From Gemmatimonas sp. (lineage in GTDB: Bacteria > Gemmatimonadota > Gemmatimonadetes > Longimicrobiales > Longimicrobiaceae), in NCBI GenBank assembly GCA_009380025.1, contig WHSP01000034.1, forward strand, positions 1 through 32,358: a DNA stretch of 32,358 bases. The letters run 5' to 3'. Below the pieces are notes generated by a model. The model was not told the origin of the DNA and did not search any database. It saw nothing but the letters and a program-made list of their open reading frames with translations. The position numbers and the translations under genes are program-made. Shown one piece after another: positions 10,102 through 23,967 of the stretch. Position 1 is the stretch's first letter; every line of letters starts with the position of its first letter.

Positions 10102-10384
10102 GTTCGCTCCGGCCCGTGTGGCGTTATCAACGGAGTCCGTTTCCAGGAGTACGAATTAAGATGATTCGTAGTCGTAGTAGGGGCGGCGGAAAAGTGGAAG
10201 CCTCCGATCTGGGTGCTAGAATCCACCGCACAACCGGGCAGAAGTGGCACGCGCGGGCTGTGGACTCCACGTGGAAACAAAGAGGCGTTGTCCACCCTTT
10301 CCACAAATCCCCGGCGCGAGGTGATCTTCCACAGCTCGTCTACACGAACTCCACACACGTTGTCCACAGGTTGCCGACCCCATC
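10102..10384. other. Putative replication origin (oriC) in the dnaA-dnaN gap
   Basis: The plus strand has several copies of TCCACA or TCCACC that look like DnaA boxes. The best is TTGTCCACA at 10360-10368. Others are TTGTCCACC (10288-10296), CTTTCCACA (10297-10305), TCTTCCACA (10325-10333) and AACTCCACA (10347-10355). A short AT-rich stretch lies at about 10148-10165 near dnaN and could be the unwinding element. The position beside dnaA and dnaN is where oriC is found in many bacteria. The exact extent cannot be set by eye. Confidence 0.7.
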
Positions 10385-11785
10385 TCAAAGACCCCTGCGT
10401 AGTTCGTCGATCTTCTGGCGGAACTCCTCATCGGCGCCCAGCTGCTCCTCGACTTTGTTGATCGAATGAATGACGGTCGAATGGTCGCGGCCACCAAAGA
10501 GTTTCCCGATCTCGACGAGCGACAGGTCGAAATGTTCCTTGATCAGATACATGGCGATTTGCCTGGGAACGGTGAGGTCCTTCGTCCTTTTCTTCGACTG
10601 GAGCTGCTCGGGTGATACACCCCAGGCGGATGACACCTTGCGACGCACCAGGTCCGGCGTCAGCTGCTGCGCCTCCGGGTCCTGCGGGCTCCTAAGGACC
10701 CCGCCGAGCGCTTCCTGTGCGAGGTCGACGTTGATCTCACGACGGGTCAACGAAGAGTAGGCGAGCAGCTTGATCACCGCGCCTTCGAGTTCGCGGACCG
10801 ACGAAGTGCAATGCCGCGCGATGAAGTTGAGGACCTCCTCCATGCCCGAGATCTCGAGGCCGTCCTCCTGCGCCCGTTTGCGCAGGATGGCAACGCGGGT
10901 TTCGAAGTCGGGAAGCTGGATGTCGGTAACGAGTCCCCACTCGAAGCGCGAAACGAGGCGATCCTCGAGACCAATATCCTTCGGCGGTCGATCGGAGGTG
11001 AGGACGATCTGCCGCTGCGCATCGTGCAGTGCGTTGAAGGTATGAAAGAACTCCTCTTGAGTCTGGCGCTTTCCCTCGAGGAACTGGATGTCGTCGACGA
11101 GCAGGAGATCGATCTGGCGGTACATTCTCCGAAACTCGGCCATCGAGCCACCCTGGATCGCGCCGATCAATTCGTTCGTAAAGGTTTCGGACGAGAGATA
11201 AAGGACGCGCTTGTGGGGGGCTCGTTCGACCACCGCATGCCCGATGGCATGCATCAGATGTGTTTTGCCCAACCCGACACCACCGTAGATGAAGAGCGGG
11301 TTGTACATCCTGGCCGGCGCCTCGGCCACAGCGTGCGCGGCAGCGGCAGCGAGCTGGTTGTTGTGGCCAACCACGAAGCGATCAAATGTGTATCGCTCGT
11401 TGAGGGGAGTGGCTGGGCGTCTCAACGTCTCCGTAGGGGCGCCAACGAAACGGTCCTCGTCTCGGGGCGTGGGGAGCTGCGGCGGCGAGGCCAGCGGAAT
11501 CCCCAGAGTGCCCGGCCCGTCGACCGGGCTCCCGCCCGAACTGAACTGGACGGACAGGCGAAAGCGCGTTCCATATAGCCGCTCACTGATTCCGGCCAGG
11601 AGGTCCGCGTACTTGTCTTCGACCCACTGGACCGCGAACGGATTGGGAGTAGAGACGATCAACGTATCGCTGGAAACGGAGATCGCCTCGGTAGGCGCCA
11701 GCCAGGTTCGGAAAGCCTGCTCCGGGAGAGCCGTTCGTGCCTCGTCGAGAATCTGAGACCAGAGTTCGGAGGCGCTCAGCTCCAT
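10385..11785 (-). CDS. dnaA: Chromosomal replication initiator protein DnaA
   Basis: Predicted 466 residues. The ATG at 11785 gives MELSASELWSQIL, the normal N-terminal interaction domain; a TTG at 11821 is too early. DnaA binds 9-bp boxes at oriC and, with ATP, melts the origin and loads the helicase. Domain II is a proline-rich linker at about 85-130. The AAA+ domain has Walker A GGVGLGKT (168-175), Walker B LLLVDDIQF (about 227-235) and a sensor region around LTSDRPP. The C-terminal domain carries the DnaA signature GGRDHSTVIHSI. It is divergent from rpmH, and its own promoter appears to contain a DnaA box. Confidence 0.98.
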   Translation of the reverse strand: MELSASELWSQILDEARTALPEQAFRTWLAPTEAISVSSDTLIVSTPNPFAVQWVEDKYADLLAGISERLYGTRFRLSVQFSSGGSPVDGPGTLGIPLASPPQLPTPRDEDRFVGAPTETLRRPATPLNERYTFDRFVVGHNNQLAAAAAHAVAEAPARMYNPLFIYGGVGLGKTHLMHAIGHAVVERAPHKRVLYLSSETFTNELIGAIQGGSMAEFRRMYRQIDLLLVDDIQFLEGKRQTQEEFFHTFNALHDAQRQIVLTSDRPPKDIGLEDRLVSRFEWGLVTDIQLPDFETRVAILRKRAQEDGLEISGMEEVLNFIARHCTSSVRELEGAVIKLLAYSSLTRREINVDLAQEALGGVLRSPQDPEAQQLTPDLVRRKVSSAWGVSPEQLQSKKRTKDLTVPRQIAMYLIKEHFDLSLVEIGKLFGGRDHSTVIHSINKVEEQLGADEEFRQKIDELRRGL

Positions 11786-11833
11786 GTACGCAGCGCGAAA
11801 AGCAGAGGGGCCGCAGGGCAAGACGAACGGGCC

Positions 11834-11862
11834 AAGCTAGGCGGCCGATGTGGAAAAGTCAA
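11834..11862 (-). promoter_or_regulatory. Predicted dnaA promoter with an embedded DnaA box
   Basis: On the minus strand, TTGACT (11857-11862) and TAGCTT (11834-11839) are separated by 17 bases, close to the sigma-70 consensus. TTTTCCACA, one mismatch from TTATCCACA, lies at 11849-11857 and overlaps the end of the -35 box and the spacer. Binding of DnaA there would be expected to block RNA polymerase, giving the autoregulation known for dnaA genes. The transcript would have a leader of roughly 40 bases. Confidence 0.6.
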
Positions 11863-17028: not shown

Positions 17029-17508
17029 TCAGTGTCGTAGGTCCCGCTTGATCCGCTCGAGCTCCGCTTTTGCCCACTCCCTGTCGTGACGGAGCGCCTG
17101 CTTCGCGTTCTCCGGCGTCAGGCCACCGTTGCGGAGGCCGCTCCTTCCGCTGAGCAGCAGGATTCCTCCGAAGAGCACCAGTGCGCCGCCCACGATCAGG
17201 GTGCTCAACCAGTACTCGCCGCCGAGAAGGGCGCCGAGCCCAACGACGAGGAACACAACGAGTAGGAGCAGGCCAAGCGCGAGGATCGCGATCCCAATAC
17301 CCAGCAGTGCCGCGTTGCGCGCCAGCGCGCGCACACTCTGGTGAAGCTCGGCTTGCGCCAGCGCGAGCTCCTGACGAAGGAGCGTGCGGGTGTCATCGAC
17401 CAGCCGGCTGACGAGGGCCGACAGGGAGCGACGCGCTCTGTCTCTCAGCTGGGTCGTGGATGGGTCCGATCCGTCGTTCGACTCTGCCGACCGATCCGTC
17501 ATCGCCAC
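17029..17508 (-). CDS. Holin-X / phage-holin-3_6-like small membrane protein
   Basis: Predicted 159 residues. An amphipathic helix ([25 protein letters not shown]) precedes two adjacent hydrophobic segments at about 68-92 and 101-121, which is the arrangement of the Putative Actinobacterial Holin-X family (PF07332). Despite the name these proteins are usually chromosomal and have no proven lytic role. The C-terminus ([29 protein letters not shown] region) is charged and helical. The start lies one base after the stop of the upstream gene, so the two are probably co-translated. No lysin or phage gene is nearby. Confidence 0.85.
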
Positions 17509-17509
17509 G

Positions 17510-17944
17510 TCAACGAAGGATCTTTCCGGCCAACCAACCTACGCCCAGGGCCACGAGGGTCGTCTGCAACGGTTTCGCTCTCACTTGCTCGGCAAGGTCG
17601 TCGCGGATGCTCCGGAGATCGCTGGCGCGCAGGTACGCAGCGACATCCTGGATCGCTTCGCTGGCCGCTTGGACTGCGTCGCTGGCGCGGGCAGGGGCCA
17701 GGCCGGAGCCGAGCTGAGCGTCCACCAGCTGATCGAGACGGTCGGCCGTGTCTTCGAGGCGCGCCGCCATTTGCTGGAACGCACGGTTGGGCCGGCGCCG
17801 GCGCTGCGAATCGAGGGTCTCTCGCTTCGGGGGTTCCTGGAATGCCTCGCGGGCGCCTTCCTGCGGATTCCATGCGTCGCCGGGCTCGGTTGCGCGGTCG
17901 GCGGAGTTCGCCGGAGCGAGGTCATCGGGTCCGTGTTCGTCCAT
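17510..17944 (-). CDS. DUF883/YqjD-like small envelope protein
   Basis: Predicted 144 residues from an ATG at 17944; the frame is open much further upstream, but that portion is antisense to mnmG and is not coding. The first 55 residues are polar and probably disordered. A helical segment ([20 protein letters not shown]) and another ([17 protein letters not shown]) lead to a short C-terminal hydrophobic stretch with glycines, [15 protein letters not shown]. This layout matches the DUF883/ElaB/YqjD type, where a long helix ends in a membrane anchor. The ribosome site is weak. It is the first gene of a four-gene cassette. Confidence 0.7.
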
Positions 17945-18083
17945 GAGGGCTCGTTCGGGGCTCGGTCTGGGGAGAGGGAGGCCGGGGGCAGCGGGTGTGC
18001 AACGCGCGTGCCATGTGCGGGCGTTGTTCGCGGGCCGCGGCACGCGGTGGAACGGACTGTGCCAGTACCGGCGCCGCCGGCAA

Positions 18084-18099
18084 CGTTCCACGTGGAACA
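18084..18099. other. parS site upstream of mnmG
   Basis: CGTTCCACGTGGAACA matches the bacterial parS consensus TGTTCCACGTGGAACA in 15 of 16 positions; the core GTTCCACGTGGAAC is a perfect 14-bp palindrome. It lies in the gap between the divergent cassette and mnmG, about 3 kb from parB. ParB would load here as a CTP-dependent clamp. Confidence 0.92.
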
Positions 18100-18238
18100 A
18101 CGTCGCCGTTGCGGTGTCGCCCGGGAAGCGGCGATGGTCGTGTTGCCCACGAAAGGGCGGCCGCGACTCCCGGGGGGCCCGGGCGTCCATGGTCGGCATT
18201 CCCAGGGGGCGGGCCGGATACCAACCGAGGAAGGAGAG

Positions 18239-20128
18239 ATGCGGAGCAAATACGAGGTCATCGTCGTCGGTGGCGGACATGCGGGGGTTGAGGCCGCGGG
18301 GGCCGCGGCCCGCGCGGGTGCCAACACGCTGCTGGTCACGCCGAACCTCGAGGCGATCGGCCAGATGAGCTGCAATCCTGCCATCGGCGGCGTTGCGAAA
18401 GGCACGGTGGTGCGCGAAGTCGATGCGCTCGGCGGCGTCATGTCGCGGGCGACCGACCGGGCGAGGATTCAGTTCCGGATGCTGAACCGCTCGAAGGGCC
18501 CGGCCGTGTGGTCTCCGCGTGCACAATGCGATCGAGGGCTGTACCGCCGGGCGGCGCGTTCCGTTCTCGAAGAGCACGCCCAGCTCGGGTTCTTCCAGGG
18601 TATGGTCGCTTCGTTGACGATCGAGCGCAATCGGGTCACTGGCGTCCGGACGGAGAGCGGCATCGAATTCGCCGCGCAGGCGGTAGTGGTGACGACCGGG
18701 ACTTTCCTGCGCGGAAGGATTCACGTCGGGGGGAGCCCCGGGCAACCAGCGGGAAGGGCGGGCGAGGCGCCCTGCGTACGCCTGGCGGAGCAGATGGAGG
18801 CGCTAGGCCTGGAGGTAGGGCGTTTCAAGACCGGAACTCCGCCCCGAATCGACGGCCGCACGATCGACTACGACCGCACGGTCCGCCAGGACGGCGAGAG
18901 TCCGGGCTACCGGTTTTCGAGCTGGGAGCGGGCCGAGCTCGCCCCCCAGAGGCCATGCTGGCTCACTTGGGCCGGCGAGCCCTTGCAGGAGATCGTTCGA
19001 AGGAATCTAGAGCGCTCGGCGCTCTACGGGGGGGAGATCGCGGGTCGCGGTCCCCGATACTGCCCTTCGATCGAGGACAAGATCGTGAAGTTTCCCGACG
19101 CGGAGCGGCACCAGATCTTTCTGGAACCGGAGGGTCTGGCGACGGACGAAGTCTACGTCAACGGGCTGTCGACGTCGCTGCCCGCGTCCGTCCAACAGGA
19201 GATGCTGCGGACGCTTCCCGGTCTGGAGCGGGCCGCAATGACACGGATGGGCTATGCGATCGAATACGACTACTTTCCACCGCATCAGCTCCATCCCACG
19301 CTCGAGCTGAAGGCTCTGTCGGGGCTCTATTTCGCCGGCCAGATCAACGGTACGACGGGGTACGAGGAGGCCGCGGGTCAAGGGATCGTCGCCGGCGCGA
19401 ACGCGGCCTTCGATGCGCTCGGCCGGGAGCCCCTGGTGTTGCGGCGCGACCAGGGGTTCATCGGAGTGCTGATCGACGACCTGGTGACGAAGGGAACGGA
19501 CGAGCCCTATCGGCTCTTTACTTCGCGAGCGGAGTTCCGGCTGCTCCTGCGACAGGACAACGCGCTGGCGAGGCTTGGCCCGGTCGCTGCGGAGAGGGGG
19601 ATGCTGACGGCACGCCAGCGGGCGCGGCTGGACGAGCGGCTGGCACTATCGGCCGCGGCGACCGAGTGGATGGATTCGACGAACGCGCGGCCTGACGAAG
19701 TGAATGCCGTTCTGCAGCAAGCGAATTCGGCGCAGCTGAGCGAACCCGTACGGATGAGTGCACTGCTGAAGCGCCCGAACGTTTCCGTCCAGGCTTTGCT
19801 GGACGCGCTCGGCCAGTCCCCACTCGGCGAGGTGTCGGATCACGAGCGAGAGGAAGTGCTGACCGGGGTCGAGATGGAGCTGCGGTATGCCGGATACCTC
19901 CGGCGAGAGCGGGAGCGGGCCGAGGCGTTGCAGCGGCAGGCGTCGTTCCCGTTGCCGGGTGACCTTCCATTCGGCGAGCTCCGGACGTTGTCGACCGAAG
20001 CTCGGCAGAAGCTCGCGCGGGTGCAGCCGCGGACGCTCGGCCAGGCCGGGCGGATCCCGGGGATCTCGCCGAGCGACCTGCAGAATCTGGTGCTGGAGGT
20101 GCGGAAGCGGCGAGCGAGCGGCGCGTAG
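18239..20128 (+). CDS. mnmG: tRNA uridine-5-carboxymethylaminomethyl modification enzyme MnmG
   Basis: Predicted 629 residues, the usual length. It uses FAD, NADH, methylene-tetrahydrofolate and glycine or ammonium with MnmE to modify U34 of tRNAs. The ATG is set by the AAGGAG site just before it; the frame stays open about 0.86 kb upstream, but that is antisense to the cassette. The FAD motif is [12 protein letters not shown] at about 9-20. Other signatures are [50 protein letters not shown] and [16 protein letters not shown]. The C-terminal helical domain ends [13 protein letters not shown]. No rsmG follows it; the next gene is parA. Confidence 0.98.
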
Positions 20129-20160: not shown

Positions 20161-20176
20161 TGTTCCACGTGAAACA
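20161..20176. other. parS site between mnmG and parA
   Basis: TGTTCCACGTGAAACA is a hybrid of the two common parS spellings (TGTTCCACGTGGAACA and TGTTTCACGTGAAACA). It lies about 100 bases upstream of parA and could both load ParB and affect expression of parAB. Confidence 0.92.
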
Positions 20177-20266
20177 AAGTTGGCGCTGAGGCGCTGGACT
20201 CGCCTGTACGCCGCCCGCTATATTGGCCGGCACTCCGGACCTTCGACCTGCGACCTGAGAACACGA

Positions 20267-21085
20267 GTGGCTCGGATTATCGCCATCGCCAACCAGAAGG
20301 GCGGTGTCGGCAAGACCACGACCGCCATCAACCTGGGAGCGTGTCTCGCCGTCGCGGAGCGCCGCACCCTCGTGATCGATATCGACCCGCAGGCCAATGC
20401 GACCAGTGGTCTGGGCGTGCCGAAAGAGCAGGTGACGCGCTCGATCTACGACGTCCTCGTCGAGGGGATGCCGGCGGCCGACACGATCACGCGGGAGGTA
20501 CATTTCCCCCGCCTCGACCTACTTCCCGCGACCCGGGACCTGGTGGGCGTGGACGTGGAGCTGGTGACTCGCGCTCGCCGTGAGACGATCCTGCGGAGGG
20601 CGCTGGATCCATTACGGGACGCGTACGACTACATCTTGATCGACGCCCCTCCGTCCCTCGGGTTGCTGACTCTCAACACCCTGACGGCGGCGGACTCGGT
20701 GCTGATCCCGATCCAGTGTGAGTTCTACGCGCTGGAGGGTTTATCGCAGCTACTCAACACGGTTCGCATCGTCCAGCGCAACCTCAATCCCTCCCTACAG
20801 ATAGAGGGTGTCCTCCTGACTATGTTCGACAGTCGGCTGAACCTGTCGCGCCAGGTGGCGGAGGAAGCGAAGGAGTATTTCGGGTCAAGGGTCTTCCGAA
20901 CGCCGATTCCGCGGAACGTTCGCATCGCCGAGGCGCCGAGCTTCGGAGAGCCAATCGTACTCTACGATATCGTGTCGGCGGGAGCGAAGAGCTATCTGGC
21001 GTTGGCGCAGGAAGTGATTGCGCGGCAGGCGTCGGGAAGTGTGGAACGGGAGGCGCTCCCGATGCCCGGCGGGGGGGAGGAGTGA
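20267..21085 (+). CDS. parA: Chromosome partitioning ATPase ParA (Soj)
   Basis: Predicted 272 residues with a GTG start at 20267, which puts the deviant Walker A motif KGGVGKTT at residues 11-18, as in homologues; an earlier in-frame start would add an unrelated segment. The protein binds ATP and DNA non-specifically and drives movement of ParB-parS complexes. [12 protein letters not shown] and [12 protein letters not shown] carry the switch and Walker B regions, and [11 protein letters not shown]-type sequence follows later. It overlaps parB by four bases. Confidence 0.97.
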
Positions 21086-22026
21086 GCTCGGCGAGGGAGT
21101 CAAGCTCCGGCACCGGGGGGGACCCTAGAAAGAAGAGCCGCCTGGGCAAAGGGTTGGAGGCGTTGCTGGGCGAGTATCTTCCGGAGGAAGGGGTAGGGAG
21201 CGAGGGGTATCGGCAGGTGCCGGTGGGCGCGATTGTGGCGAACCCATTCCAGCCTCGTCGGGAGTTCCCGAAGGAGCAGCTCGGGGAGTTGGAGAGCTCG
21301 ATCCGAGAAAACGGGCTGCTTCAGCCGCTCGTCGTCCGACCGACCGATCCGGCGTCGACGATGGGAGCGGAGTGGGAGTTGGTGGCGGGAGAGCGGCGGC
21401 TCCGGGCCGTGCGCCAGCTGGGCTGGAAGGAGGTGCCGGTCGTCGTTCGAGACATGGACGATCGGACGCTGTTAGTGCTGGCGATCGTCGAGAACGTGCA
21501 GCGGGCGGACCTGACGCCTCTGGAGGAGGCGGAGGGGTACCGGCAACTCATCGAGGATTTCGAGTACACGCAAAAGGAGGTAGCGGAGAGCGTAGGCCGT
21601 GAGCGCTCGACCATCGCCAACCTGCTCCGGCTGCTGCAGCTGCCGGCATCGGTTCAGCAGCTGGTATCGACTGGCCGGCTCTCGATGGGACACGCGCGAG
21701 CGATCCTGGGAATGGGCGATCACCGGCAGATGGCTGACCTCGCCCGGCGTGCGGCAGACGAGGGAATGTCGGTGCGGAACGTGGAGGAGCTGGTGCGTAG
21801 CTCCCGCCCGGGAGGGCGAAAGAAGCGGGAGGGTTCCGGTCGGCAGAACGCTACGGATCCACACGTGCGGCAGCTGGAGACGGAGTTGCAGCGCTACCTC
21901 GGAACGGAGGTAAGGATTCGCGTCTCAGGACGAACTTCGGGCCGGATCGAGATCCCGTTCTATGGTGTCGAGGACTTCGAGCGGGTGACAGAGTTACTCT
22001 TGGGTGCCGAGGCGACGAGGTCGTGA
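21082..22026 (+). CDS. parB: Chromosome partitioning protein ParB (Spo0J)
   Basis: Predicted 314 residues. The GTG start overlaps the parA stop (GTGA) and follows a GGGGGGAGG site. An N-terminal basic segment ([15 protein letters not shown]) resembles the ParA-activating tail. The CTP-binding domain has the motif GERRLRA at residues 103-109 and ENVQRADL at 137-144. The helix-turn-helix that reads parS lies at about 162-186 ([17 protein letters not shown]). A C-terminal dimerisation domain ends at the stop. Two parS sites lie within 3 kb upstream. Confidence 0.98.
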
Positions 22027-22129
22027 CGATGCCGTGGTGGGGAGCGAGACGGGTCGGGCGCATGAACGAGGCGGCGGGGTCGGTCGCAGTCGCCCACATG
22101 AGCGGCCTCGGCAGGGCCGAGAGAGCAAG

Positions 22130-22939
22130 ATGAAGGATCGCGGGCAGAAGGAACGCAGGAAGAAGAAGGCGCCACGTCGGATGACGTTCATCGTCGTGCC
22201 ACATGGTCGGCGCGACGAGGGCACGCGCTCGTTCGAGGTCTCCTATCGACGGTTGAGGGCAACCGGGGCCCTGGTCCTCTTGCTCGTGCTTACGTGGATC
22301 GGGATGGCGGGATCCTGGCTTTGGGTCGGAAGTCAGGCCGCCAGGGTTCCGGGTCTGGAGGGAGAGGTCACGCGGATGGAAGAGGAGTTGGCGCAGGTCG
22401 GACAGCTGGGACTCGCGCTGCGCCAGCTCGAGGGTCAGTACCACCGGATGCGGGAGATGCTGGGGGCGAATCGTCCGGCCGATCCGGGAAGCATCTGGCT
22501 GCCCGCAATCGGCGAGTTGCCGCTGCCGGAGCCGATGTCCGACGAAGCGGCAGCGGACTCCGTGCCCAACGCATGGCCATTGACGCAGCGAGGCTTCGTT
22601 ACCCGTGAGCACCTCGGTGTCATTCCCGGTCAGCATCCCGGTATCGATATCGCCGTGGCCGAGGGTTCCTACGTCCGAGCGGCCGGGATAGGTGTCGTCA
22701 TCGAGGCGGGTGAGGACGACGTCTACGGAAGATTCGTGCGGATCAAGCACCCGGAAGGGTATGAATCGGTCTATGGTCACGCTTCCGAGCTCTTCGTAGT
22801 CCCCACCGATGAGGTCGAGCGTCACCAGGTGATCGCCCTGAGCGGGAACACCGGAACCTCGACTGCGCCCCACCTGCATTTCGAGATCTGGCAGGACGGT
22901 CACGCGATCGATCCGCGGCAGATCGTCGCCACACCCTGA
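22130..22939 (+). CDS. M23 family metallopeptidase (LytM/zinc endopeptidase domain)
   Basis: Predicted 269 residues. After a basic N-terminus (KDRGQKERRKKKAPRR) there is one membrane segment at about 46-67, so the domain should face the periplasm. A coiled-coil region (about 74-112) follows. The LytM domain has all metal ligands: His169 and Asp173 in HPGIDIAV, and His250 in HLHFE, with His217 in VYGHASEL and His248 as the remaining active-site histidines. It probably cleaves peptidoglycan cross-links or acts with a divisome or elongation complex. The ATG at 22130 is the first sensible start. It follows parB closely (103 bases). Confidence 0.92.
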   Translation: MKDRGQKERRKKKAPRRMTFIVVPHGRRDEGTRSFEVSYRRLRATGALVLLLVLTWIGMAGSWLWVGSQAARVPGLEGEVTRMEEELAQVGQLGLALRQLEGQYHRMREMLGANRPADPGSIWLPAIGELPLPEPMSDEAAADSVPNAWPLTQRGFVTREHLGVIPGQHPGIDIAVAEGSYVRAAGIGVVIEAGEDDVYGRFVRIKHPEGYESVYGHASELFVVPTDEVERHQVIALSGNTGTSTAPHLHFEIWQDGHAIDPRQIVATP

Positions 22940-23087
22940 GAACGGTTCCCTCGGCCGGACTCGATCCGGATCGAACAAGCGGACCACGTAAATCGAGAAT
23001 CGCGGGCATCGATATCGAGGTGAGGCGCCCGCCCTGGAGGGTGACCCGTGATGAGGAGAGCATCTGCAGGGCTCACGCTGGGAATTG

Positions 23088-23198
23088 TTCTCCACAGTCG
23101 ACTCTACTCCATATCGCATTGCCGCACAATGAGTTGCCGCTTTCCACAAAAGATAGCACCGGTTTTCCACGCGTTTTCTCCACAATCGTGGAAACGCG
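23088..23198. promoter_or_regulatory. Second cluster of DnaA-box-like motifs with hairpin, upstream of the Nif3-family gene
   Basis: The gap 22940-23214 contains two identical TTCTCCACA copies (23088-23096 and 23176-23184), each one mismatch from TTATCCACA, plus CTTTCCACA (23140-23148), TTTTCCACG (23163-23171) and the inverted GTTTCCACG (23187-23195). The arm CGCGTTT (23170-23176) pairs with AAACGCG (23192-23198) around an inner CCAC/GTGG stem. The hairpin ends 17 bases before the next start codon. It may be a DnaA-bound control site, an origin-associated site or the target of another regulator. Confidence 0.45.
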
Positions 23199-23214
23199 CG
23201 GCAGGGGTTGGGAA

Positions 23215-23967
23215 ATGAACGTGATCGAGCTGAGGGAACGCCTCGACGGGCTGCTCCGTACAGCCGAGATCGCCGACTATCCGGATGCCTATAACGGGCT
23301 GCAGGTGGAATGCGGCACGGAGATCGAGCGAGTCGCTTTTGCTGTCGACGCCTCCCTGGTAACGATCGAAGCGGCGGTGGACGGCAGAGCGAACCTGCTG
23401 GTCGTCCACCATGGGCTTTTCTGGGGTGGAGGTGCCCCGTTGACAGAACGGCGGTACCGTCGGGTGCGTGCGTTGATCCAGGCGGACGTGGGACTCTACA
23501 GCGCACATCTTCCGCTGGACGCGCACCCGCAAGTCGGCAACAACGCCGTCCTGGCACGGAAGCTAGGTGTGGAGATCGAGGGGAGGTTCGGCGACTACAA
23601 GGGGACGGAGATCGGCATCTGGGGTCGGCTCGAGATGAGGCGAGAAGCGCTTGCCGCTCGGCTGGACGAGTTGCTGGGGAACCGGGTGCGGCTGATCGCG
23701 GGCGGACCCGAGCGGGTGCGCAACGTCGGTGTGATCACCGGGGGTGCCGGCGGGGAGGTAGCGGCCGCGCGTGCGGCTGGCCTGGACGCGTTCATCACGG
23801 GCGAAGGAGCTCACCACAACTATTTCGACGCGGTCGAGGGCAGCATCAACCTGTACCTCGGTGGGCACTACGCCACGGAGGTCTGGGGGGTTCGCGCTCT
23901 GGCAGAGTACTGTTCCCGTGAGCTGGGGCTCCAGACCTTCTTTATCGATCAACCTACTGGTTTGTAG
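23215..23967 (+). CDS. Nif3-like dinuclear metal centre protein
   Basis: Predicted 250 residues. The ATG at 23215 is preferred to an in-frame start at 23020 because homologues start MNVIELRE-like and the longer form would read through the hairpin and box-like region. The conserved metal-binding His pair is His65-His66 in LLVVHHGLFW, then HLPLDAHPQVGNN with Asp102, and His218 and Glu222 in GGHYATEVWG. Nif3/YbgI proteins form hexameric toroids; some are annotated GTP cyclohydrolase I type 2, but the cellular role is unclear. The usual zinc-ribbon partner (C4-type) and sigma factor or rpoD neighbour are not next to it. Confidence 0.93.
   Translation: MNVIELRERLDGLLRTAEIADYPDAYNGLQVECGTEIERVAFAVDASLVTIEAAVDGRANLLVVHHGLFWGGGAPLTERRYRRVRALIQADVGLYSAHLPLDAHPQVGNNAVLARKLGVEIEGRFGDYKGTEIGIWGRLEMRREALAARLDELLGNRVRLIAGGPERVRNVGVITGGAGGEVAAARAAGLDAFITGEGAHHNYFDAVEGSINLYLGGHYATEVWGVRALAEYCSRELGLQTFFIDQPTGL

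Follow-up and report, generated by a model that had tools for sequence, protein, structure and literature searches.

Directly behind the chromosome segregation genes of a soil-type bacterium whose genome, judged by its nearest named relatives, is Longimicrobium-like and belongs to the Gemmatimonadota, a short non-coding stretch carries four predicted DnaA boxes and an inverted fifth site. Since relatives across the class keep the cluster after these genes whatever gene follows it, its probable role is to control replication timing or the coupling of replication to segregation. The best explanation, to which we give close to an even chance, is that it serves as a cis-acting DnaA-binding cluster beside the parABS centromere and near oriC, which would restrain re-initiation in the manner of datA or of the DnaA-box clusters (DBCs) of Bacillus subtilis. 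A first-pass annotation of this DNA had put forward a second origin element, a datA/DARS-like titration or regulatory site and a 5′ leader of the Nif3 gene; the second of these is favoured by what follows, and the other two found no support.

To our knowledge, the restraint of DnaA after initiation is poorly understood in bacteria other than E. coli, Bacillus, Streptomyces and Caulobacter. A DnaA-box cluster fixed to parAB and conserved across much of the main class of a phylum is a small and concrete target, with which to ask if DnaA titration close to the origin, or the action of DnaA at the centromere, is old and general.

Gene Neighbourhood

The window, by which we mean the whole stretch of 32,358 nucleotides that was analysed, holds an origin neighbourhood of the classical type, with dnaN and dnaA (10385..11821, minus strand; Pfam Bac_DnaA, DnaA_N and Bac_DnaA_C) pointing leftward and yidC, mnmE, gidA, parA, parB, an M23 peptidase gene and nif3 pointing rightward; putative rpmH, rnpA and yidD genes are assigned by their position between dnaA and yidC. 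The gap between dnaN and dnaA (10102..10384), with DnaA boxes and DnaA-trios, is the predicted oriC. In 25 of 30 relatives a good DnaA box also precedes dnaA by 20–110 bp, and one lies at 11849-11857 in the window, as is expected for dnaA autoregulation.

The segregation operon consists of parA (20180..21085, plus strand; Pfam AAA_31/ParA), parB (21082..22026, plus strand; ParB_N and HTH_ParB) and, as its final gene in the window, the M23 peptidase gene (22004..22939, plus strand; Peptidase_M23). In most relatives a bactofilin gene comes next; none was found in window positions 22940-23087, so that here the cluster follows the peptidase gene directly, and the absence probably reflects a recent loss. 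The intergenic region that holds the boxes (22940..23214) thus lies 3′ of the parAB-M23 operon, and its downstream neighbour, though not the owner of the element, is nif3 (DUF34; 23215..23967, plus strand; Pfam DUF34_NIF3, E 3e-56). An exact parS site, TGTTCCACGTGAAACA, is found at 20161..20176 and a second, with one mismatch, at 18084..18099; these are the only two in the genome, 2.9 kb and 5 kb from the cluster. The listed gidA frame (17384-20128) puts about 290 additional residues ahead of the GIDA domain; its real start codon probably lies close to 18240, and the parS-like site at 18084 is therefore probably intergenic.

Composition and Density of the Cluster

All four predicted DnaA boxes lie on the plus strand: box 1, TTCTCCACA, at 23088..23096, which same-family relatives keep about 55 bp ahead of box 2; box 2, CTTTCCACA, at 23140..23148, which reads TTTTCCACA in most relatives; box 3, TTTTCCACG, at 23163..23171; and box 4, again TTCTCCACA, at 23176..23184, 13 bp past box 3. 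They are followed by an inverted DnaA-box-like site, CGTGGAAAC at 23188..23196 (GTTTCCACG on the minus strand), and an inverted box recurs at this place in relatives. The coordinates agree with the first-pass description of two exact TTCTCCACA copies and three variants, one of them inverted, within 110 bases.

That such a density is unusual by chance, as had also been claimed, is borne out by the genome count. Three TTNTCCAC sites fall within 95 bp at the cluster, against 362 in the whole genome of 5,020,577 bases; the probability of at least three in 110 bp is 8e-8, and about 0.004 such clusters would be expected in the genome. Background density does not explain the cluster, which is confirmed as real and non-random. 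The window as a whole has 12 TTNTCCAC sites against 2.3 in shuffles, and 4 of the 49 genome copies of the stricter TTNTCCACA lie on this 32-kb contig. Several predicted DnaA boxes, above background, in a short non-coding stretch outside oriC are what characterises DBC- and datA-like sites. Elsewhere in the genome there are two more close TTNTCCACA pairs, at C172:3481-3580 (91 bp apart) and C445:73519-73568 (41 bp apart).

Conservation and Spacing

The first-pass annotation held that loss of the sites in close relatives would speak against it; comparison with relatives instead found the cluster kept. In its own family (f1), boxes stand ahead of nif3 in every genome examined, and in most of these they start at 0, +55, +78 and +91 and are followed by the inverted box, at a spacing of 55, 23 and 13 bp, so that f1 displays the conserved box number and spacing seen in DBC- and datA-like sites. 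The invariant columns of the f1 alignment are almost exclusively box positions, and the boxes of relatives are nearer the consensus TTATCCACA than those of the window. Each of 14 of the 21 f1 genomes has exactly one copy of the 13-bp double box, TTNTCCACNNNNNTTNTCCAC, always at the cluster, and the reversed control of this motif has no match in the f1 genomes; at least two TTNTCCAC sites are present in the region in 17 of 17 f1 genomes.

Families other than f1 retain boxes with different spacing. Exact TTNTCCACA is at least two orders of magnitude more frequent than in dinucleotide shuffles in each of f1 (39 observed against 0.19), f2 (24 against 0.07), f3 (15 against 0.07), f5 (4 against 0) and f7 (13 against 0.10). 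The cluster is partly retained in f4 and f8, and it is gone from most f6 genomes and from both f9 genomes.

Association with the parAB Operon

In f1 the cluster lies between the operon and nif3, and a class-wide comparison of the positions of nif3, parB and dnaA was informative since nif3 has moved away from parB in some families. In f4, f5 and f8, where nif3 lies elsewhere, no box cluster was found upstream of it, and any boxes stand by the end of the parA-parB-M23-bactofilin operon, between about 50 bp ahead of that end and 180 bp past it. The gene that follows them is a Na/Ca exchanger gene in f4, a LOG-like protein gene in f8, a Bmp lipoprotein gene or nif3 in f7, and in f5 a convergent atpC, such that the cluster sits between two converging gene ends. 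Because the boxes stay with the operon and are absent from relocated nif3, the cluster, judged by this synteny, belongs to the parAB operon and not to nif3. The proposal that it is a promoter or 5′ leader controlling the Nif3 gene is rejected on the same broken synteny: the element does not travel with nif3.

A broader transcriptional role can still be envisioned, in which binding of DnaA at the operon's 3′ end would govern read-through, or would drive or repress the next gene, here nif3. The last box in f1 to f3 usually ends no more than about 100 bp from nif3, and a covarying repeat between boxes 1 and 2, together with the TTTT of box 2, resembles an operon terminator fused with a box (see below). 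However, the downstream gene varies by family and is convergent in f5, where a promoter is not needed, relocated nif3 has no box cluster, and no sigma-70-like promoter was found in the cluster region of this genome; we regard such a role as distinctly unlikely.

Relation to oriC

The cluster lies about 12.8 kb from the dnaA-dnaN gap, which places it close to oriC, as DBC- and datA-like sites of the origin-proximal kind are. The distance from parB to dnaA is 5–14 kb in f1, f3 to f5 and f8, with exceptions in f7. The cluster is present in 23 of the 36 genomes in which parB lies within 25 kb of dnaA and in 2 of the 15 in which it lies beyond, in counts that ignore kinship. An exception to this trend is genome G153, in which dnaA and parB are 111 kb apart and parB is still followed directly by three boxes. 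Conversely, five f3 genomes with a distance of 8–9.5 kb carry no boxes; these five, most of f6 and both f9 genomes indicate that the element is dispensable.

Bacterial origins are known to combine DnaA boxes with DnaA-trios (PMC8287927), and the dnaA-dnaN gap of 30 relatives carries boxes followed by runs such as TCCACACCCTCTACTACTACTACTGA. A strict form of the trio pattern is found at 23 of the 30 dnaA loci, and most of the other seven are recognisable by eye; the window's own gap reads TACTACGACTACGAATCA on its minus strand (CCGCCCC-TAC-TAC-GAC-TAC-GAA-TCA, about 10163-10186). No DnaA-trio unwinding element was found at the cluster, and the strict pattern matches 1 of 48 intergenic regions of relatives. 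GC skew was readable in three genomes: its cumulative minimum is at dnaA-dnaN in G042, it breaks at dnaA-dnaN in G021, and in G145 the cumulative minimum is about 5 kb from dnaA-dnaN and 34 kb from parB; it was ambiguous in G018, G084, G091 and G045. Within the window there is no GC-skew switch at 23 kb. The cluster shares DnaA boxes with the basal unwinding system of bacterial oriC but has no trios, which this contig carries between dnaA and dnaN instead; with trios there, none at the cluster and a skew break at or near dnaA in the three readable genomes, the cluster is rejected as a second origin.

A related idea appears very improbable, namely that the cluster loops with the dnaA-dnaN gap as the second part of a bipartite origin or as a spare one. 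Box density is comparable in the two places, and origins of the bipartite type are known from Bacillus (PMC5295017) and Helicobacter (PMC8235120), but the lack of trios or any unwinding region at the cluster, a separation of 10–14 kb (16–111 kb in some relatives) and a skew break at or near dnaA-dnaN in all three readable genomes argue against it. In G091 a local peak of the cumulative GC skew falls at 1,966,455, some 1 kb away from the cluster, whose boxes are near 1,965,408, but genome-wide samples are too noisy for this peak to be interpreted.

Precedents and Possible Function

The preferred reading, restraint of re-initiation, can be put as a sequence of events. DnaA would bind the boxes as an ordered complex, for which the fixed spacing argues; as the replication fork would pass the cluster very soon after initiation, these complexes would double in number at once, and the doubled complexes would withdraw or inactivate DnaA, so that re-initiation is held back. 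It is important to stress that we infer both the binding of DnaA and its effect on initiation. Several points weigh against this reading: an array of four or five boxes is small for simple titration of the DnaA pool, the element is dispensable in the genomes named above, and the tie to parB fits a role in segregation equally well.

Among the precedents, the Bacillus/Streptomyces group fits best, as a small array, mostly less than 25 kb from oriC, that is copied right after initiation. The DBCs of B. subtilis and the cluster of S. coelicolor likewise consist of several DnaA boxes outside but near oriC, with no unwinding element, whereas the predicted cluster described here belongs to the Gemmatimonadota and is tied, with fixed box spacing, to the parAB-M23-bactofilin operon at its 3′ end. 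DnaA is a target of both ParA (Soj) and DnaA-box clusters in Bacillus, and here parAB and the cluster are neighbours. Untimely initiation is repressed by oriC-proximal arrays of this kind in B. subtilis and S. coelicolor (PMC4585315; PMC5295017; PMC13220808), and one review doubts the importance of the Bacillus clusters (PMC5295017).

The E. coli sites datA, DARS1 and DARS2 are also non-coding DnaA-box arrays of conserved spacing located away from oriC, where they exert their action, but they belong to another phylum and another gene context. At datA, an IHF site lies between boxes 2 and 3 and DnaA-ATP is hydrolysed, and at DARS1 and DARS2 a specific core of three boxes frees DnaA of its ADP. 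DnaA boxes of E. coli are dense near oriC (PMC12371093).

The position beside parABS leaves room for another reading, in which DnaA bound beside parS and parAB would assist in starting or licensing segregation of the origin region. Action of DnaA at the parS of Caulobacter crescentus, in the account of Mera et al. 2014 given in PMC6399470, offers a precedent, and in both cases DnaA boxes lie in a centromere region close to the origin. The place directly after the parAB operon is kept despite different downstream genes, an exact parS is within 3 kb, and G153 retains boxes in spite of its distant parB. However, the boxes are neither inside nor beside parS itself and instead follow parB and its operon with the nearest parS 2.9 kb off; moreover, they are lost in most genomes with parB far from dnaA, which proximity to oriC explains better. 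We judge a centromere-linked site rather unlikely. The two roles could also be joined: through a class-wide DnaA complex in the parABS locus, segregation of the origin would be coupled to how much active DnaA there is. The boxes would then delay re-initiation by acting as a sink and would at the same time signal to the centromere, with a terminator U-tract doubling as a box, a combination that we consider unlikely.

In the literature searched we found no origin study of the Gemmatimonadota, no report of such an element in the phylum and no description of DnaA boxes fixed after parAB, a silence that is weak evidence of novelty.

Inverted Repeats

The first-pass annotation also drew a hairpin from CGCGTTT (23170-23176) and AAACGCG (23192-23198), around the inverted boxes 4 and 5 (23170..23198). 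The arms are present, but the fold is no better than chance and the outer arms are not conserved: pairing of the outer CGCG is private to this genome, and the inverted pair of boxes, which is chiefly what the hairpin is, recurs in relatives. No stable RNA fold was found in 23040-23230 beyond that of shuffles (leader region z = +0.6), the leader region matches no Rfam family, and an RNA leader is rejected on these grounds.

Another inverted repeat lies between boxes 1 and 2; most f1 genomes retain it through paired changes in its two arms (10 of 15 pairs), with a covariation score of 0.368 in f1 against 0.213 in shuffles (0 of 500); the window keeps a weak remnant of it, CATTG..CAATG (23117..23131, plus strand). 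As the covarying repeat runs into the TTTT of box 2 in relatives, it may be an operon terminator that shares its T-run with the predicted DnaA box. A rival view is that DnaA does not bind and that the sequence is conserved for another protein, or as the operon terminator alone; the covarying repeat could be the main constraint. Against this, the invariant columns are almost only boxes, these agree with the DnaA box found in oriC of this lineage, and boxes persist in genomes with no clear repeat; the idea is improbable.

Palindromes of about 66–70 bp, of the form GAGTT(A/T)TCCACA...TGGA(A/T)AACTC with variable arms, are present in at least five copies in this genome, on contigs C32, C36, C51, C65 and C449, and are perhaps a REP-like or mobile hairpin family.
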